A stretch of DNA of 64,000 nucleotides from Protonemura montana. Lineage: Eukaryota; Arthropoda; Insecta; Plecoptera; Nemouridae. Positions 15,342-58,960 of this stretch are shown piece after piece. Each line of letters begins with the position of its first letter. Position 1 is the stretch's first letter. The position numbers and the translations under genes were made by a program. Under the pieces are notes generated by a model. It did not search any database and was not told the DNA's origin. It saw only the letters and a list, made by a program, of their open reading frames with translations. The stretch lies in the NCBI GenBank assembly GCA_947568835.1, contig OX387604.1:1386001-1450000 (forward strand), in the 5' to 3' direction.

Positions 15342-17653
15342 ATGAAAATTGCTCATTTTCAGCAACGATTGGAAAATTCCCAATTGGAACTAATCCTGAA
15401 CCCACGAGTCGGACCTGCTGATCTTAGAACACCACCAACGTATATTTGCAACTCTCAGGAAAATGATAACCTAGAATGCAATCCCAGCCAGCTTTCTGAC
15501 TGCCAAAGCCCTCCTTCATACGAGGATGCCACCGATCCCGACGGTATGTCATTTCTTCCATAATAATTTATCTCTCTCATCCTGGACCCAGCAAATTATA
15601 TGACACAACCAGTTTAGAACCATGTGTCGTAGGATTGAGTCAAACGTAGTAAACATGCATCAAACAAGAGTAGTTCCTTCACTTTTGCAGTCAGCACTTG
15701 GAGCACAAATCTTTGTAATAGAATTTTGACCGTGTAAGAGGTGTGTTGAATAAGTATTGTTGGTCGAATCTCTATGTCCATCTCAAGATCATAGAGCCAT
15801 AGACTAAGACCCAAAAAAATTCAATTTTAAACTCAAATTACACTTGGGTCGTTCAGAAAGCCATCTTCTTTGAAGCGAACACGACAGGTTAAATGAGAAA
15901 ATAGGAAAATCTTTGCTTGCTTTCCAAATAAGTATTCCTAGTAAATCCTTCAGTTTGCAGAGTTGTGCGCTACACATTAACAAAGTGGGAAAATGTAACC
16001 AAATCGGCATACTTCATTTAATTATTATATCCCAGAAAATAGAATGATGTCAAAATCCAATTAGCACAGATGCAATGTAAGATTTTATTCTATATATTTT
16101 TCAAGGGGTTTCTTGCAACATTTCACATCTGATTTTTCTGACTAATTTCAGTAGGGTTTCCCTTTTTCTCCTTGGGGGCTGGGGCTTTATGATTGAATTT
16201 GGGAAATGTTATTACTTGAATGTGGCTTATTTTCTTCAGCAGCTCCCCCTCCATCGTACGATTCATTGTTCGGAAGAGTTCGGCAAGCACACAGCAAATC
16301 CAAAGGAGTGGTAGACTTTCTAAAGAACGTACTCTTGCTCATTCTAGGAACACGTAAGTTACTTTTATTTCTATGTACTTTTTGTTCTAATGCCTTTATA
16401 TTAAACAAAGACAGGAGGGAGTGAAGGATGTATTACATCTTTGTTTTCTTGGTGACAATGGGAAAAACATTAACAATGTCAATTCTCCTCACACCTAGTA
16501 CTATTTTTTGTTACTTTGTCTCTTTACCCCTTTCTTACCACATACTTATTAAATAATACCTAAAAAAAAACCACCTATAATACGTTAATTTTAATTTTAT
16601 ATTTCAGTTGGCTGTTCTATAATATTAGGCATAACAATAGTGGTTCCAATCAGTATGATTGTGATGGCATTCACTTACTGGAATGAGTGTCCCAAATGCT
16701 CCTACATTCCGGTCTATCTTCTAGTTGGTGGTATGTCGAAGAAGTTGCTAATCTGTGTAAACAGCATTCGGCACCATGGGTAACAGCACTGATGGCTATG
16801 CTGTTGTTGCAGGAATTGTTGGACTTTGCAAGCAGGTGCTTCATTTCTTTACCCGAGCAGGTATCTGCAAAAGTGTACCAACAGAGGAAAGAACACACCG
16901 CAGGCACTCTCCCTGGCAAGCTATCATCAACTGCTTTCTACTGGGCTGGTTTTTTATTGGTATTTACCTAGCCCTGACGTAAATTTAAGAAATATTCAAT
17001 GGAAATGGAAATTGGTAACCTTCGATTGCGTTCGGATTACCAAGTTTCTGAAATTTTGCCAGACTTCATCAATTTTATGAACTTATTTAGAAATATCCAT
17101 CAGCTTTAGTGACTATTTTCAATCATCAACCTACGTGTGTCAGTATCTGTTCCAATAGTAAATGTGTGGTGTGCTTAGAACAAAAAACCTAAAAGCCAAG
17201 TAGACAATATTGCTTGAATTATTCCCAAAGAACCCTTTGCATCCTTATTGTCTTTCTCTTGTCGTAAAATGTGGGAAATAATTCAGAAACCAGGATGGAA
17301 AAAAAAGTAAATTTCTTGATGTCCAAAGAATCAGTATAAAAGATGGTATCTTTAAATGTTGGTTCAGTTTGTACGTGACCACTTGATATTGATTGAGATG
17401 ACATACCTACCCTTGAGAGATGAAGAAGCTTGTTGGTACCTAACAACTTATTCTGGTTGCAGGCTCAGTCTGGGTTTTCCGAGCTTACGAGCCCAACTAT
17501 GAGGGCAGCGGCAACGGAGCCGAATATTGCGACAAGAGAATCTACTTGTACTCCTTCTGGCTCCTGACCTCAGTTTACATCTTCTTGGGCGTTGTTTCCG
17601 TTAGCTTGTGCACTATCAGTGCGGCAGCAGTTTTCTGCCAGAGGCGACGATAG
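15342..17653 (+). CDS. TMEM272-like four-pass transmembrane protein
   Basis: A small integral membrane protein of unknown function related to the TMEM272 family. Exons: 15342 or 15363 to 15543, 16240-16353, 16608-16730, 16813-16959, 17463-17653. All junctions keep phase, giving about 253 residues if translation starts at ATG 15342. That ATG lies just 5' of a good acceptor (tttcag, ending 15362), so an upstream first exon is possible. The cytoplasmic N-terminus carries two PPSY-type motifs (SPPSYEDA and PPPSYDSLFGRV), potential WW-domain ligands. Four hydrophobic spans follow, around VVDFLKNVLLLILGT/GCSIILGITIVV, IPVYLLVGGIVGLC, AIINCFLLGWFFIG and YLYSFWLLTSVYIFLGVVSV. The C-terminus is QRRR. 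VWVFRAYEPNY and YWNECPKCSYIPVYL are typical of the family. The function is not known to me. Confidence 0.88.
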
Positions 17654-36965: not shown

Positions 36966-37400
36966 ATCGAACGGTTTGGCGTGTTGGAAACACTAATTCT
37001 CGTGAGATCACAGAAGTTAAGCAACACTGCGCTGGGCGGGTATTGGGTGGGTGACCATCATACACATGACCAGTTCTGTTCGGGAGAGAGGTTGGCTAGA
37101 TTAAAGTTAGAGCACCAGCTTCACTCGCCTTGCTTATCAACCTCTCGACAGCATGGATTTGTGGAGGAATCCTGTTGTTCGCGTTGTACCATCCTTCGGA
37201 AGGGACGTTAAGCCGGTGGTCCTAGTGGTGCTTAACTACAGAAGTAGTCAATGTGCCGACACCGGGTTTCCCCTCCTCTCTTCTAGGCTAGGTTAGATTC
37301 ATCATCATTCAAACATTCAAGGACGCCATTAGACCAGTACCGAATGCCCCCTAGTCGAAACAGTGCGTCGTTAAACACCACAAATCAATCAATCAATATC
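36966..37400 (+). mobile_element. 5S rRNA-derived SINE, copy B (best preserved)
   Basis: The 5S-like head (acggtttggcgtgttgg, cgtgagatcacagaagttaa, gggtattgggtgggtgacc) is followed by a family body (catacacatgaccagttctg, ttcactcgccttgcttatca, ccatccttcggaagggacgt, ccgggtttcccctcc, gccattagaccagtacc) and a 3' tail gtcgttaaacacc plus caaatcaatcaatcaat. The (AATC)n tail is typical of retroposition. The RNA polymerase III internal control region looks nearly complete, so it may once have been transcribed. Confidence 0.85.
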
Positions 37401-44600: not shown

Positions 44601-47600
44601 TAACCTTGAGAAGGAGCTGAGGGCAAGGTAATCTCTTACTGGCAACCCACATCCATCTCGGTCCATCAACTTTATCATCACCCAATCTTTCACGAGCGCT
44701 ATTAGACCTGTGTCAAAACTGTATGTTTTTAAACCCCACAATCAACTGATACATCCCTGAGCAAACCAGAGCAATGTTTACAAAAGCTGGCTCTTGCTGA
44801 AAATATGCAAATGCTGAAAAAGTGAAAAAGTTTCTGGCAATGGTTGCTTTGGGCTTGGCAGAAAAAATCCCAATATACATTTTTTTTTGTTGCATTATAT
44901 CGTATTAAGTAATTGCCTGGTATTACTAGGCATACTATTACTTTGCCTGGTAATTACACATTAAAAATGTTACTTGTTGAGCTGTATATTTTTATAGTAT
45001 TGTCTTTTTAACTCTTTGAAAACCATTATCTGTATTTAAAATTTGGAACCTTTGCTACTGTGATTCACTGCATGTGGAAAATTTTTCAATTCCAAGGTGG
45101 GCATGATAATTAATTGGAAAACAAATTATGGGAGCTGTCAAGAGATTGCCGTCGAAAAATTAGAATAATCTTTCTTTGAGACCAAATCTTAATAAATATG
45201 TGTTAAATCTCAACTTTGTATAACGAAAAACAAAATTAACAGCTGGCAAAAGACATTAATTTAACAAAAATTAAGTTTTTATTTCTATGAAGTTTTGTGA
45301 TCCCATTTGAAAAGTGTCTAAATCTTTCCTTGCCAGCCAGTTTTCGATACAATTCTCTATAGAAGCTCCATCAAATCGCCGTACATATGGCACATTTGGT
45401 TGCGCTCACAAATAATATACAACTGAAAACCATTTCCAGCCGTTTCCAACCAATTTTGGCAATTTCTCTTTGGGAAACAAATATCCAAGTGCAAAGTTAA
45501 ACATACCAACAACCCCACAAAGTCCATTACATGAAAAAAGATCACCAGCATTACAAATTTCATCCTAGGTTTATGTTTACGAATGTTGCAGCTTGTCGGA
45601 GTTGGGACAGGCCAGAGCAGAGAATGTTGCCAAGTTCTTGCCACTGGTGGCAGGTAAGCTGCTAGCACTGATGGTGGGCCCCACCCACGTTGGGGGGCAG
45701 TCAGTCAATCTGGCATCCGATGCGTTCCACTCACTCTGCCTGCTGGCCAAGAATGTTTCGGTGAGTTCTCTACTGGTTATCAATCCCTACCAGGCTTTCA
45801 CAACAAATTGATCCAACACAGTAGCTTTATTAGTCAGCTACGAACCAGGTCGTTGGTGTAATTTCAGCAGTTCTGTCAGCTGTTTTCTAGTTTTGTTACC
45901 AGGTAAATATTTTGTACCATCTCCAGACTCGCTGTAAATCACTGAAAAATGTTTAAACTGAGAAGGCTTGTGAACACACTGATGCCGCAACTATACATTT
46001 TTTTTTGCAAATGAATAGGTACCCTGGACCACTTATTGACATAGAGTAAATAGTGTAGAAGTTTAGAGCTAGCAAGCAGAACTAATGCTGCACAGTACTC
46101 CATGTGTGACATAACCTATTCTGCAATGCAAACCGTGGATTTTTTTGCTTTCCAGGCCCTGCCAGGCAGGACAGGCGATCGTCATGAAAGACATTCTTTG
46201 CTTGCATCACTGGTTGCGTTCCATCGGCTGCCCACCCGCCTGCCCACGATGCCCACCGCGATGCCCGTCACGATGCCAGTCAGGCTTGCCAAGTAGGTAG
46301 CCCGTTGCTCTATCACAGCACTTCGAACAAAGCTTTTGTATTAATCTGCTCGGAAAGGTTGGATCAGGTGGTCTGCTGCAAACGCCATCAGGCAATTACC
46401 GAGCCGTTGCAACTAACTATGAGCATTATTAATACACGAGGTTAGCAGTTTTAAAACCATTACCCACTGAGGAAATTCAAACAGTTATCTGTACTTTAGG
46501 AGGTTTGCACGTAGATTCAAGTAGGTAAGTTTAGTTTTGTGGAAATTTTGCTAAGATAGTCGTTTTTGTTGCCAACTACCTATTCAACTATGGTTTGAGA
46601 TGGTTGGTGCTGAGATTGCCTGACTTCCATATTCTTGTGTTACGGTGGGTAATCAAAACGTGACTGTACAGGTTTATTTATTTATTATTGTTTATTGATC
46701 AACAACGGAGGCAAGTTCACAAGTGTGATAGAATAAAATAAGAACAATACTGAGACATTACAAACAGAACAGAATATAAAACATTTAAACGAAGAAACAT
46801 GAACGATTAAAAACATGACTATTTACAAACGTAAGCTTAAATCAAGACGTAACACGCAATGAGAGATTGCCGTAGGTAATTAAAATATTTTCAAGTTTTC
46901 ATGGGCAGCTTGTAATTATATCAATAAGCTGATCACACTTATAACAAATCGAATTGAAATACCAACTCCAATGAATTGTCTTAGGAGCAGCAGCAACCCC
47001 GACTTGAATGCCGACCTGGAAGTTGACGTGATCACAAGAGGTCTTGACCGTGCTTGCAGCATGCGTCAACAAGGTAAGCCCTTCTCACTCAACTTACTAA
47101 TATAGAAAGTCACTGCTCATTTTAACTCTGCTTTTGTTTGACAAGAATTATAGCCTTGTCTAGGATCTTCAGTCTAGGTTTTCTTTAACAAGTTTCACAA
47201 ACCCTTTAAGCACTGACTGCAGATCTGCTTATTGATGACACTTTTCTCGTAACTAGCCAGATACTATTTCACTCAAGCCTTACAACTGGCTGGCCAGCTG
47301 GTCGAATCTGTGAGCGAGCTACCCAAGATGTTTCGATAATTATATGAATGTCACTTATACCATGTGCTCCTTACAAAAACCAGCTAAAACACCGTGTAAA
47401 TGTTGCAGTTTCACTCAATTATTGCTCAAGTACGTGGTATGATGCAAGGTACTTGGTTTTTGGTCAATGGTGTAAATGATTTCACAAAAACTATTTGAAC
47501 GGGTTTTGATTGCTCAGTGAAGAACAACTGAATTTCCCAACGGTTCGTAACGTGTACCTGTTACTTTTTCAAGGACTGCTTTTACCTTTGAAAAAGTAAC

Positions 47601-50600
47601 AGGTACAAGTTACGAAACGTTGGGAAATTTAGTTGTTCTTCACTTAGCAATCAAAACCCGTTCAAATAGTTTTTATCTAAACTAGTGCTAAGGTTGGATA
47701 AAGTAGACATGAGTCTAAAAACTTTCATGGTGTAAATGATCACCTGCCAGTGCATAATCCTACCCAAAATTAGCAGGTCCTGAAATGTCCCAAGAAGAAC
47801 ATAACGCTGTTCAAATTGATGCTTTTCTAAATTGATCTAAAAATATTGAGCTCCAAAGATGATCTGGTTTTATTGGGAACAGAACTTTACTAAACATACT
47901 GTATGTTCGCCGAGGCAAAGGAAATGTAGATAATTTTTACATAGTTGTCATCCACTATCACTAAACTTAGATTCATTGGCCTGTTGGAAGATATCAAAGA
48001 AAGATGGGTTTTGGGTTGTTTCTACTTATCGGAATTCCACTGTAGCACAAACAGCAAACAGTTTTTTAAATTATCTACTTTTTTCTGTGCTGCAGGACAA
48101 GTGGATAATGGTGAGTACGCCTGGCTATGTACATATGTACCTACCTGACTTTGTACATATGTACCTACCTGACTATCTTTCCTAGTTCTCTAGTTCCTAC
48201 CTGACCACTTACCTACCTACAGTCATTTGCTGTTATAAAAACTTTATTCTTATCCCTCAAGATCTCTAAAGCTCACCCTATAATCGGGGAGTATTTTTAA
48301 AACTTGTATTAATGTCTTTGGCAATATTATAACCACCATGAAACCACATATAACTCATGCTGGTGCCCCAAAAAGTTTCGCTCTGTTTCAATTGGTTTTT
48401 CTTTTTGGTTCTTTAAAGGACTGGGGCATTTGCTAATTTTTTGCCTGTGATGAAGAAGACAGTTTTAGAACTGTAATCTGTGACGAATAAACGAAACATT
48501 GCCTATGCTCTGGTCCTTTTAGGCACCCACCATCGGAATCGAGGAAAACCAATCAATGTACAGACCCACGGTTCTTAGCCACCCTGCTGTTTCATCTGGT
48601 TTATTTTCTCTTTTGACTCATTGCATTTCCAACGCATGTTTTTAGTCTCAGAATATTTGAAACTCCTATAATTTAGCTCCCAAGGCTGAAATTGCTCTTA
48701 GGTCCAGTTTTCCAAACTTCGACTCGCTGTTGAGTTTATAACGCACGGAAATATCTGAATTTCACCGCATGCGATTGGAAGTAGCTGTGGTAAATGTTTT
48801 AACTCCCACTTAACTAGATGTTAAGAAAGTTGTAAAACAAAACATTAATATAGCCTACTGTCCGGCCATCCAGGTGGAGGGGGCGGTCTTCCAATGGGGC
48901 CTGGGGGGTCTGGGGCATCAAAGTGCCTTCACGAGGAGCTTGCTCTTCAGTGGGTGGTCAGCACCGGGCCAGCACGTGAACTGGCACTCACGCATTCCTG
49001 GTTCCTGCTGGAGCTTCTGGCCAAGAGCATGGTTCAGGAGGTCTGTTTGGAGTTGCCTCGAGACCAGCGGTTCTCCCCTCATTTCACTGACGACGTAGCG
49101 ACTTTGGCCGCGGTGCTGACTGCGGAAATCACCGCTCGACACAACAAGGACACCACTGTGAGTTAAAACAAAAACTATTTCAACTGGGTTCTTGAATGCT
49201 AAGTAAAGAACAAATAAATTTCCCAACGTTTCGTAACTTGTACCTGTTACTTTTCCAAGGGTAAGAGCAGTCCTGGCAATTTTCCAATAACAAAAGAACC
49301 ACACGAAATTATAACAATTACCAAGTTCAAGGATCCTAAATGCATCTAAATATCAGGGTCAATAACTAAAAAACTAACATATTTTGTATTTTCTGAAATA
49401 ATCAAGTAGACATAAGTCTAAAAACAATCACCACTGTGAGTTCATTTGGTGCTTGATAATAATGTGAAGAAAAGGGGAGGGAGGTGAGCCAGCTGCAGGT
49501 TGCAGATCGATAGGGTTCATTAATTTCCTGCACAAAATTGCCAATATTTAGATCATTGTTGTTACGATGAATGTATGCTACATTTGGCACAGCTAGAATA
49601 TGTTGTCATGATATTGAATGGTTTAAACATCAGGTTATTATATTTATGAAATTTGACTGCACCGCTTATTGGGATCCTTTTTGCATGGAAATATTTCAGT
49701 TGTCGCAGCGCATGAATTCGAGCCTGGCATTCTTCATGTTCGACCTGTTCTCCACGATGGACCGTGGATTTGTCTTCCACCTCATCAAGAGCTACTGCAA
49801 GCAAATGGCAATTGCGATCTCCACTGCCTCTGACCCAACAATCTTGATGGGTTTGAAAGTGAGCCTTTTATCTCCACTATCAACCATCTGCCATATTCTC
49901 GGCAGAAGCCAGATTTTTCTTGGGATACTGAAACGAGGACTGTTAGTCGTCCGGTCGGTCATGGGATAATTTTATCTTTGAGTTGAAAAGAAAGTAAAAT
50001 CAATCCTGGATCCAAGGAGTAATGTTTTACAATAATGCAACAGAAAGCTTCACCATCGGATCTAAAGATTAGTCACACTTCTTGAATTTCTGTCTCAAAA
50101 CTCAGAAGTGTTCTGCCAAAAGTTCTGTCAAAAGTGTGACACCCAAAGTCTAGTTAAAAGAATAATTTGTTTCTAGCAATGACTGCACTTTAAGGCCAGA
50201 CGAGGGAATTTCTAAGTATAACAGCTATAAGCCAGCTAATGTTCTCAAAAAAGAAATCAAATTAATCTGTCTGACACTATAGTAAGAAACCTCTGAATTC
50301 CTTTTATCGAGCGATGATGACAACCCCTTTGCCTGCCCACAGGTGGACTTGTTACGTATCGTCTGCAGCCACGAACACTTTGTGCCACTGAACCTGCCAT
50401 TTGGGACGCCAGTGATGCGGGGCTCTGCCCCCTCTTCCCCCACCCCTTCGGTCTGCTCCTCCACGAGCCAGTCTTCGCTGGCATCTACGCTTGTGCCCCC
50501 AGATCGCAGCAGCTTCTCCGAGCTGACCTCCGCATTTCAACGCCACCACTTCTTGGCTGGACTAGTGCTCTCCCAGCTGTCTTCAGTGCTGCAAACACAC

Positions 50601-58285: not shown

Positions 58286-58669
58286 GCTGACCCACACACA
58301 CAGACAAACAACTGCCTGTTGACAGGCAAAGAGTTTCCAACTTTTCAGGAGCCACTTTAGACGCAATTAAAGTTTGTCAACTGATGGAAGTCGATTTCCA
58401 CTTGCGTCGACTCCACCATTTACCAAAGTTGCTTTGCCAAAGCGATAAAATCTTCCTACCAACTAGATTTGCTTGAGGGTTGAACTCACTTGAAATTCAA
58501 CTTTCAAACGATCTTTTGTCACAAACAACGTGCAAGGAAGCCAGGAAATGGACGTAGGCAAAAAGTGTTAAAAATCCTTTTGGGTCTTTTTGGGTGCGTC
58601 CATTCCATTTAAAGATTTACTAAGACGAATGTTTTCAGAGATCTGTGTTTGATTTCTACCAGCCTTTAT

Positions 58670-58960
58670 GGTTTTTAGACTCATGTCTACTTTATCTAAT
58701 ATCAGCACTAGTTTTGAAAAAAAACTTTTAAAAATTGGGTTATGAATGCTAAGTAAAATAACCAATTTTTATGACATATCTTCTCTTATACCTGTTACTT
58801 CATCAAGGGTGAAAGCAGTTCTGACAAAAAGAACTGCAAAAATATAAACAATTACCTTTTCTAGACCTTCTAGACGTTTCATTAATTCTTAATGCATGAA
58901 ACTAAAAACTTTAATAATTCAAGGCACAGATATTTTACATGTTTGATATAAAATTACCTC
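58670..58960 (+). mobile_element. Hairpin-family element, rearranged relic (copy 3)
   Basis: It begins with the family end in reverse orientation (gtttttagactcatgtctac). The text then follows copy 2: attgggttatgaatgctaag, tacctgttacttcatcaagg, gtgaaagcagttctgac, aacaattacc, aatgcat. It is rearranged, and I see no direct repeats. Confidence 0.55.

Follow-up and report, generated by a model that had tools for sequence, protein, structure and literature searches.

The window analysed here, the whole of a 64,000-nucleotide stretch of Protonemura montana DNA (C16:1386001-1450000), carries exons of a gene for a DOCK6/7/8-type protein, and at one of its exon-intron junctions a short piece of dispersed repeat lies between two copies of the same 5' splice site. 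Translation and protein comparison identify the exons at 48874-49157 and 49700-49858 as consecutive parts of such a protein: the joined peptide of 147 amino acids (translated from 48876) aligns with DOCK6 (Dedicator of cytokinesis protein 6; PDB 9vm2; E 3.2e-31), and the alignment runs across the junction unbroken. Because no gap falls at the join to 49700, the first exon is placed as ending at 49157 in phase 0, with its donor GTGAGT at 49158. An empty-site paralogue or second haplotype of this exon was sought in the organism's own genome, where the exon gave a single match only. The features of the junction, in window coordinates, are as follows.

48874-49157, plus strand: DOCK6/7/8-type exon, its end inside the left repeat; the acceptor (...CCAG before 48874) was read by eye
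49151-49164, plus strand: target duplication, left-hand copy (CACCACTGTGAGTT), made up of the last 7 exon bases and the first 7 intron bases
49158-49163, plus strand: upstream 5' splice site GTGAGT in the original frame, from the phase-0 join to 49700 without a gap against DOCK6
49164-49166, plus strand: TAA, in frame by translation and read if the downstream donor is used
49165-49428, no strand assigned: putative Penelope-like retroelement fragment of 264 bp, belonging to a dispersed family
49165-49400, minus strand: piece from the 3' region of the element, inverted, about 236 bp (reference 292 down to 47; alignment 49161-49401)
49401-49428, plus strand: forward 3' end of the element, 28 bp (reference 307-335; final base common with the repeat), recognised by its terminal motif
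49429-49442, plus strand: target duplication, right-hand copy (CACCACTGTGAGTT), a perfect repeat at a spacing of 278
49436-49441, plus strand: downstream duplicate 5' splice site GTGAGT, read from the sequence; if used, it would lengthen the transcript by 278 bp and bring in a stop at once
49700-49858, plus strand: next DOCK exon, from the DOCK6 alignment of the joined peptide

The 14-mer CACCACTGTGAGTT occurs twice on the plus strand of the window. A chance origin is very unlikely, since a perfect 14-bp direct repeat appeared anywhere in 601 bp in only 36 of 20000 first-order Markov simulations, in which its position was free and no coincidence with element ends was required, and since the observed repeat sits on the ends of a dispersed repeat. 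The 264 bp between the copies begin and end, to within a few bases, where other members of the family do. It had originally been predicted that a 264-bp element is flanked here by perfect 14-bp repeats coinciding with its boundaries, that the left repeat spans the end of the DOCK exon and its GT donor, and that target-site duplication thereby produced two identical donors 278 bp apart; the located repeats, the ends of the related copies, the gap-free phase-0 join and the GTGAGT in both repeats bear this out. As to its extent, 8 bp of the duplication (CCACTGTG) are certain and 14 bp are the maximum, because the CA at the right end and the AGTT at the left end are also present in family sequence at those places, so that as many as 6 of the 14 bp may reflect chance sharing or microhomology with the element.

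Judged by its sequence, the insert derives in rearranged form from the 3' end of a Penelope-like retroelement and does not constitute an independent hairpin element. Its earlier description as a member of a hairpin family stood as far as the family is concerned, in that other members possess inverted arms, but not for the copy in the window, where a search of 49000-49600 for inverted repeats of at least 12 found none. L017 supplied the 335-base 3' reference by which the pieces were defined, and compared with its nearest relatives the insert has 11 mismatches in a 241-column alignment and 7 gap bases, a difference of roughly 5%. In the 5' inversions of L1 elements, which arise by twin priming, an inverted 5' piece precedes a forward 3' piece and a little sequence is lost where the orientation changes; the present insert likewise runs inverted and then forward with a small deletion between. 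Unlike L1 twin priming, however, the inverted start in this family often falls in a narrow zone, positions 283-293 of the reference: among 30 copies chosen by an exact 3' end and aligned to the reference, the inverted piece starts within that zone in 12, elsewhere in 5 and is lacking in 13. Such clustering suggests a set terminal structure over random priming.

The family to which the insert belongs is dispersed through the genome, with at least 60 matches among those listed (the best 40 of 2654 first-look candidates were scored) and 3311 occurrences of the exact terminal 22-mer of the 3' end, a lower bound on the number of copies. Within the sample picked by 3' end, copies have that end in common and vary in 5' extent, and the 12 copies with the clustered inverted start display a one-sided tail, the inversion beginning some 45 bases before the 3' end is reached. 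In 4 of the 10 longer copies read (L060, L064, L066 and L068), pieces of a reverse transcriptase open reading frame adjoin the same 3' region, that of L066 matching Pfam RVT_1 (E 9.8e-14) and, weakly, group II intron and other reverse transcriptases in PDB (best E 0.00055). On its motifs we provisionally take this enzyme to be of Penelope type, and presume that a motif downstream of it in L064 and L060 (KGVYEVSC...YIGETGR..., with KGVYEVSCECGKVYIGETGR in L064) is GIY-YIG-like; L066 has YIRETGR in its place. Searches for a GIY-YIG domain gave no match in Pfam, none in PDB up to E 10, one unnamed family in PHROGs (0.016) and an unrelated family in NCBIfam (0.34). Adjoining L066, and upstream of its reading frame, L069 contains an inverted 3' region (reference 335 down to 205, tail included), after which the reading-frame pieces are interrupted by stops.

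These features resemble those of the Penelope-like elements of Adineta vaga, for which the available part of PMC3846280 describes inverted pLTRs, a one-sided tail and target duplications of around 10 bp: the present family likewise combines a reverse transcriptase, inverted terminal-repeat pieces of its 3' region, a short tail at one end and target duplications. Unlike the elements in that part of PMC3846280, the copies considered here are mostly very short 3' scraps. The shared combination probably places the family among the Penelope-like elements, with the endonuclease as the sole defining part unconfirmed.

Several further observations concern the family's distribution and the contents of the window. 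A motif further upstream in the element has 149 exact copies in the genome, and the 10 longer copies read were drawn from these. Longer copies lie within 2 Mb of a contig end at 55 of 87 places (the 100 listed of 149, reaching into C12, minus 13 on contigs of unknown length), where 15.7 would be expected if they were uniform, and 35 of the 38 closest copies (the best 40 minus the window copy and one on C3) lie within 3 Mb of a contig end against 10.2 expected, figures in which contig ends are possibly not chromosome ends and general repeat density is uncontrolled. L007 and L008 (C16 near 26.81 and 26.79 Mb) each span 3246 bp, lie about 16 kb from one another and show 100% identity, through either recent duplication or an assembly artefact. 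Across eight sources compared with known RNA families at the gathering threshold, the only match was in the window, a single 5S rRNA at 36966-37085 on the plus strand (full model, 50.7 bits); six loci searched at E up to 10 gave seven matches, none at gathering score and none a ribozyme. Matches to MIR2646 in L019 (E 9.2e-16, 78 bits) and L011 (4.1e-05, 37 bits), set against a cut-off of 245, were taken for chance AT-rich fold-back likeness. A COX1-like stretch with stops at 17133-17360 on the minus strand of the window (31.5 bits, below the family cut-off) is perhaps a nuclear copy of mitochondrial DNA; C4 holds larger COX1 matches, at 5.76 and 5.78 Mb, which are equal or similar to the one on the small contig C34. 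Translated with the invertebrate mitochondrial code, COX1 gives SQESGKKEAFG and KIFSWLAT, whereas the ascidian code yields residues that are less usual there.

Flanking duplications recur among the copies. The right flank was compared with the best match at the left end in 34 of them (30 with an exact 3' end, two in the window, L002 and L010), and scores of at least 9 were reached by 15 copies against 0.45% of mismatched pairings, scores of at least 11 by 11 copies against none. The 15 clear repeats measure 12-18 bp, 12 of them 12-15 bp, under a scoring that allowed one mismatch; in the other 19 copies the same method found no clear repeat, the left end being perhaps misplaced in some. Within the window itself, a neighbouring copy at 47484-47722, in another DOCK intron, also consists of an inverted and a forward piece and has a perfect 14-bp target duplication, ATGGTGTAAATGAT, just outside it. 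A third copy at 58668-58827, on the minus strand, is older-looking (about 72% identity over 113 bases), with a 3' end that looks intact.

For the host gene, the two donors differ in their consequences. Translation past the upstream donor gives VS and then TAA (...HNKDTTVS*), so a transcript spliced from 49436 would carry a premature stop codon, as had been foreseen, and the upstream donor was likewise correctly expected to preserve the DOCK reading frame. The accompanying idea that the gene was rescued by its own duplication is not supported: where the complete donor falls within the target duplication, the gene is intact at every stage, and rescue is unneeded. Sequence alone does not tell which donor is chosen, for they do not differ between -7 and +7, and local RNA folding around them is mixed, with no decisive guide to which is accessible. 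In experiments with duplicated donors, the site nearer the acceptor has sometimes been favoured. Because the exon's own signals adjoin the upstream donor, it is expected to be the one mainly used, and some use of the downstream donor is quite possible.

How much of the duplicated donor is host sequence depends on the true length of the duplication. Were this only some 8-10 bp, extended by microhomology, the AGTT after the upstream GTG would be derived from the element and the donor would be part host and part element. Longer copies do have the family sequence AGTTTTAACAAAAACT here, and L010, which has the same arrangement, also has AGT in common with its right-hand flank; against this, the window sequence AGTTAAAAC differs by two bases from the family's AGTTTTAAC, where a 14-bp duplication needs no change, and other copies show clear repeats of 12-18 bp. 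We therefore regard the shorter duplication as rather unlikely. The same insertion could also have acquired a role, its downstream donor now being a regulated site that adds a stop and tunes DOCK output via nonsense-mediated decay. The identity of the donors from -7 to +7 and the in-frame stop would suit such a role, as would the human gene in which, according to the available part of PMC5585400, proteins such as SRSF1, together with hnRNP A1, decide which of two competing donors is taken. Selection on the downstream donor is nevertheless not needed to account for the perfect repeat, given that the neighbouring intronic copy has a perfect 14-bp repeat too and that, at a difference of roughly 5%, the probability that 14 sites stay unaltered is near 0.5; with only 11 mismatches in 241 columns against its nearest relatives, the 14-mer can survive without it. 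Selection inferred from the repeat was accordingly discarded, and a regulated donor seems to us very unlikely.

Two other origins would change the nature of the event itself. The long inverted arms of some family members are what a cut-and-paste DNA element, a MITE or foldback, would lead one to expect, but reverse transcriptase pieces adjoin the same 3' region, the window copy has no inverted repeat, and the copies combine a common 3' end with variable 5' extent (in a sample picked by that end) and flanking repeats of variable length. A MITE or foldback transposon was ruled out on the first two of these grounds, and we lend the idea of a DNA element hardly any credence. Introners, which according to the available part of PMC9860276 often draw their splice sites from the target duplication, offer a precedent for an element that created the intron it now occupies. 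Beyond the right-hand repeat, however, the intron continues through about 257 bp of different sequence that includes an acceptor, TTTCAG, and because this acceptor lies beyond the repeat the intron would still have both splice sites if the insert were removed. With donor and acceptor independent of the insert, intron gain is exceedingly improbable. The present case is like introners in that the target duplication carries a 5' splice site, and unlike them in that introners, as that part of PMC9860276 has it, make a new intron within an exon, whereas here a spare donor was added to an intron whose splice sites are independent of the insert.

We thus return to the insertion of a Penelope-like fragment with a duplication of 8-14 bp that copied the DOCK donor, the upstream donor being mainly used, an account to which as a whole we assign a probability of about 0.85. 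From the anatomy of the junction, the reading frame with its stop, and the dispersed family with its reverse transcriptase, we infer the following order of events and use of donors. A staggered cut would have been made across the end of the DOCK exon and its 5' splice site, and a rearranged 3'-terminal Penelope-like copy integrated there; fill-in of the staggered ends would then have duplicated 8 to 14 bp and left an exon end and donor on both sides of the insert. Splicing mainly from 49157/49158 would leave the protein unchanged and the intron longer by 278 bp (542 bp in all), while splicing from 49435/49436 would add 278 bp and an immediate stop, leaving the mRNA open to nonsense-mediated decay. 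Had the duplication been shorter, the AGTT in the upstream donor would have come from the element, with an equal outcome. Because a 14-bp duplication keeps the left exon and donor, the insertion would have been harmless from the start unless the downstream donor competes.

Random insertion would be expected to yield about 4-15 donor-duplicating cases in the genome, calculated from 3311 copies (a lower bound), six fitting positions of a 9-base donor in 14 bp and an assumed 50,000-200,000 donors. A single case in DOCK is thus unremarkable, and the recurrence of such insertions is at this point a calculation and not an observation; GTRAGT at control offsets of 40-52 from the terminal motif occurs 29 times in the genome, a count that is uninformative by itself. 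As we read it, the DOCK insertion is a new case of an already known kind of event, and any function is purely hypothetical.

The locus offers a natural pair of identical 5' splice sites 278 bp apart in one intron, an arrangement that laboratory tests of splice-site choice must build. Since copies of the family are numerous and a complete 5' splice site fits within its target duplications, many duplicated-donor pairs may have arisen through it, some of them adding stops and so lowering or tuning the output of their genes, DOCK among them, a speculation that we consider distinctly doubtful. More generally, an element whose duplication exceeds a 5' splice site in length could strike exon ends harmlessly, and such insertions may therefore be retained more often than other hits in or near exons.
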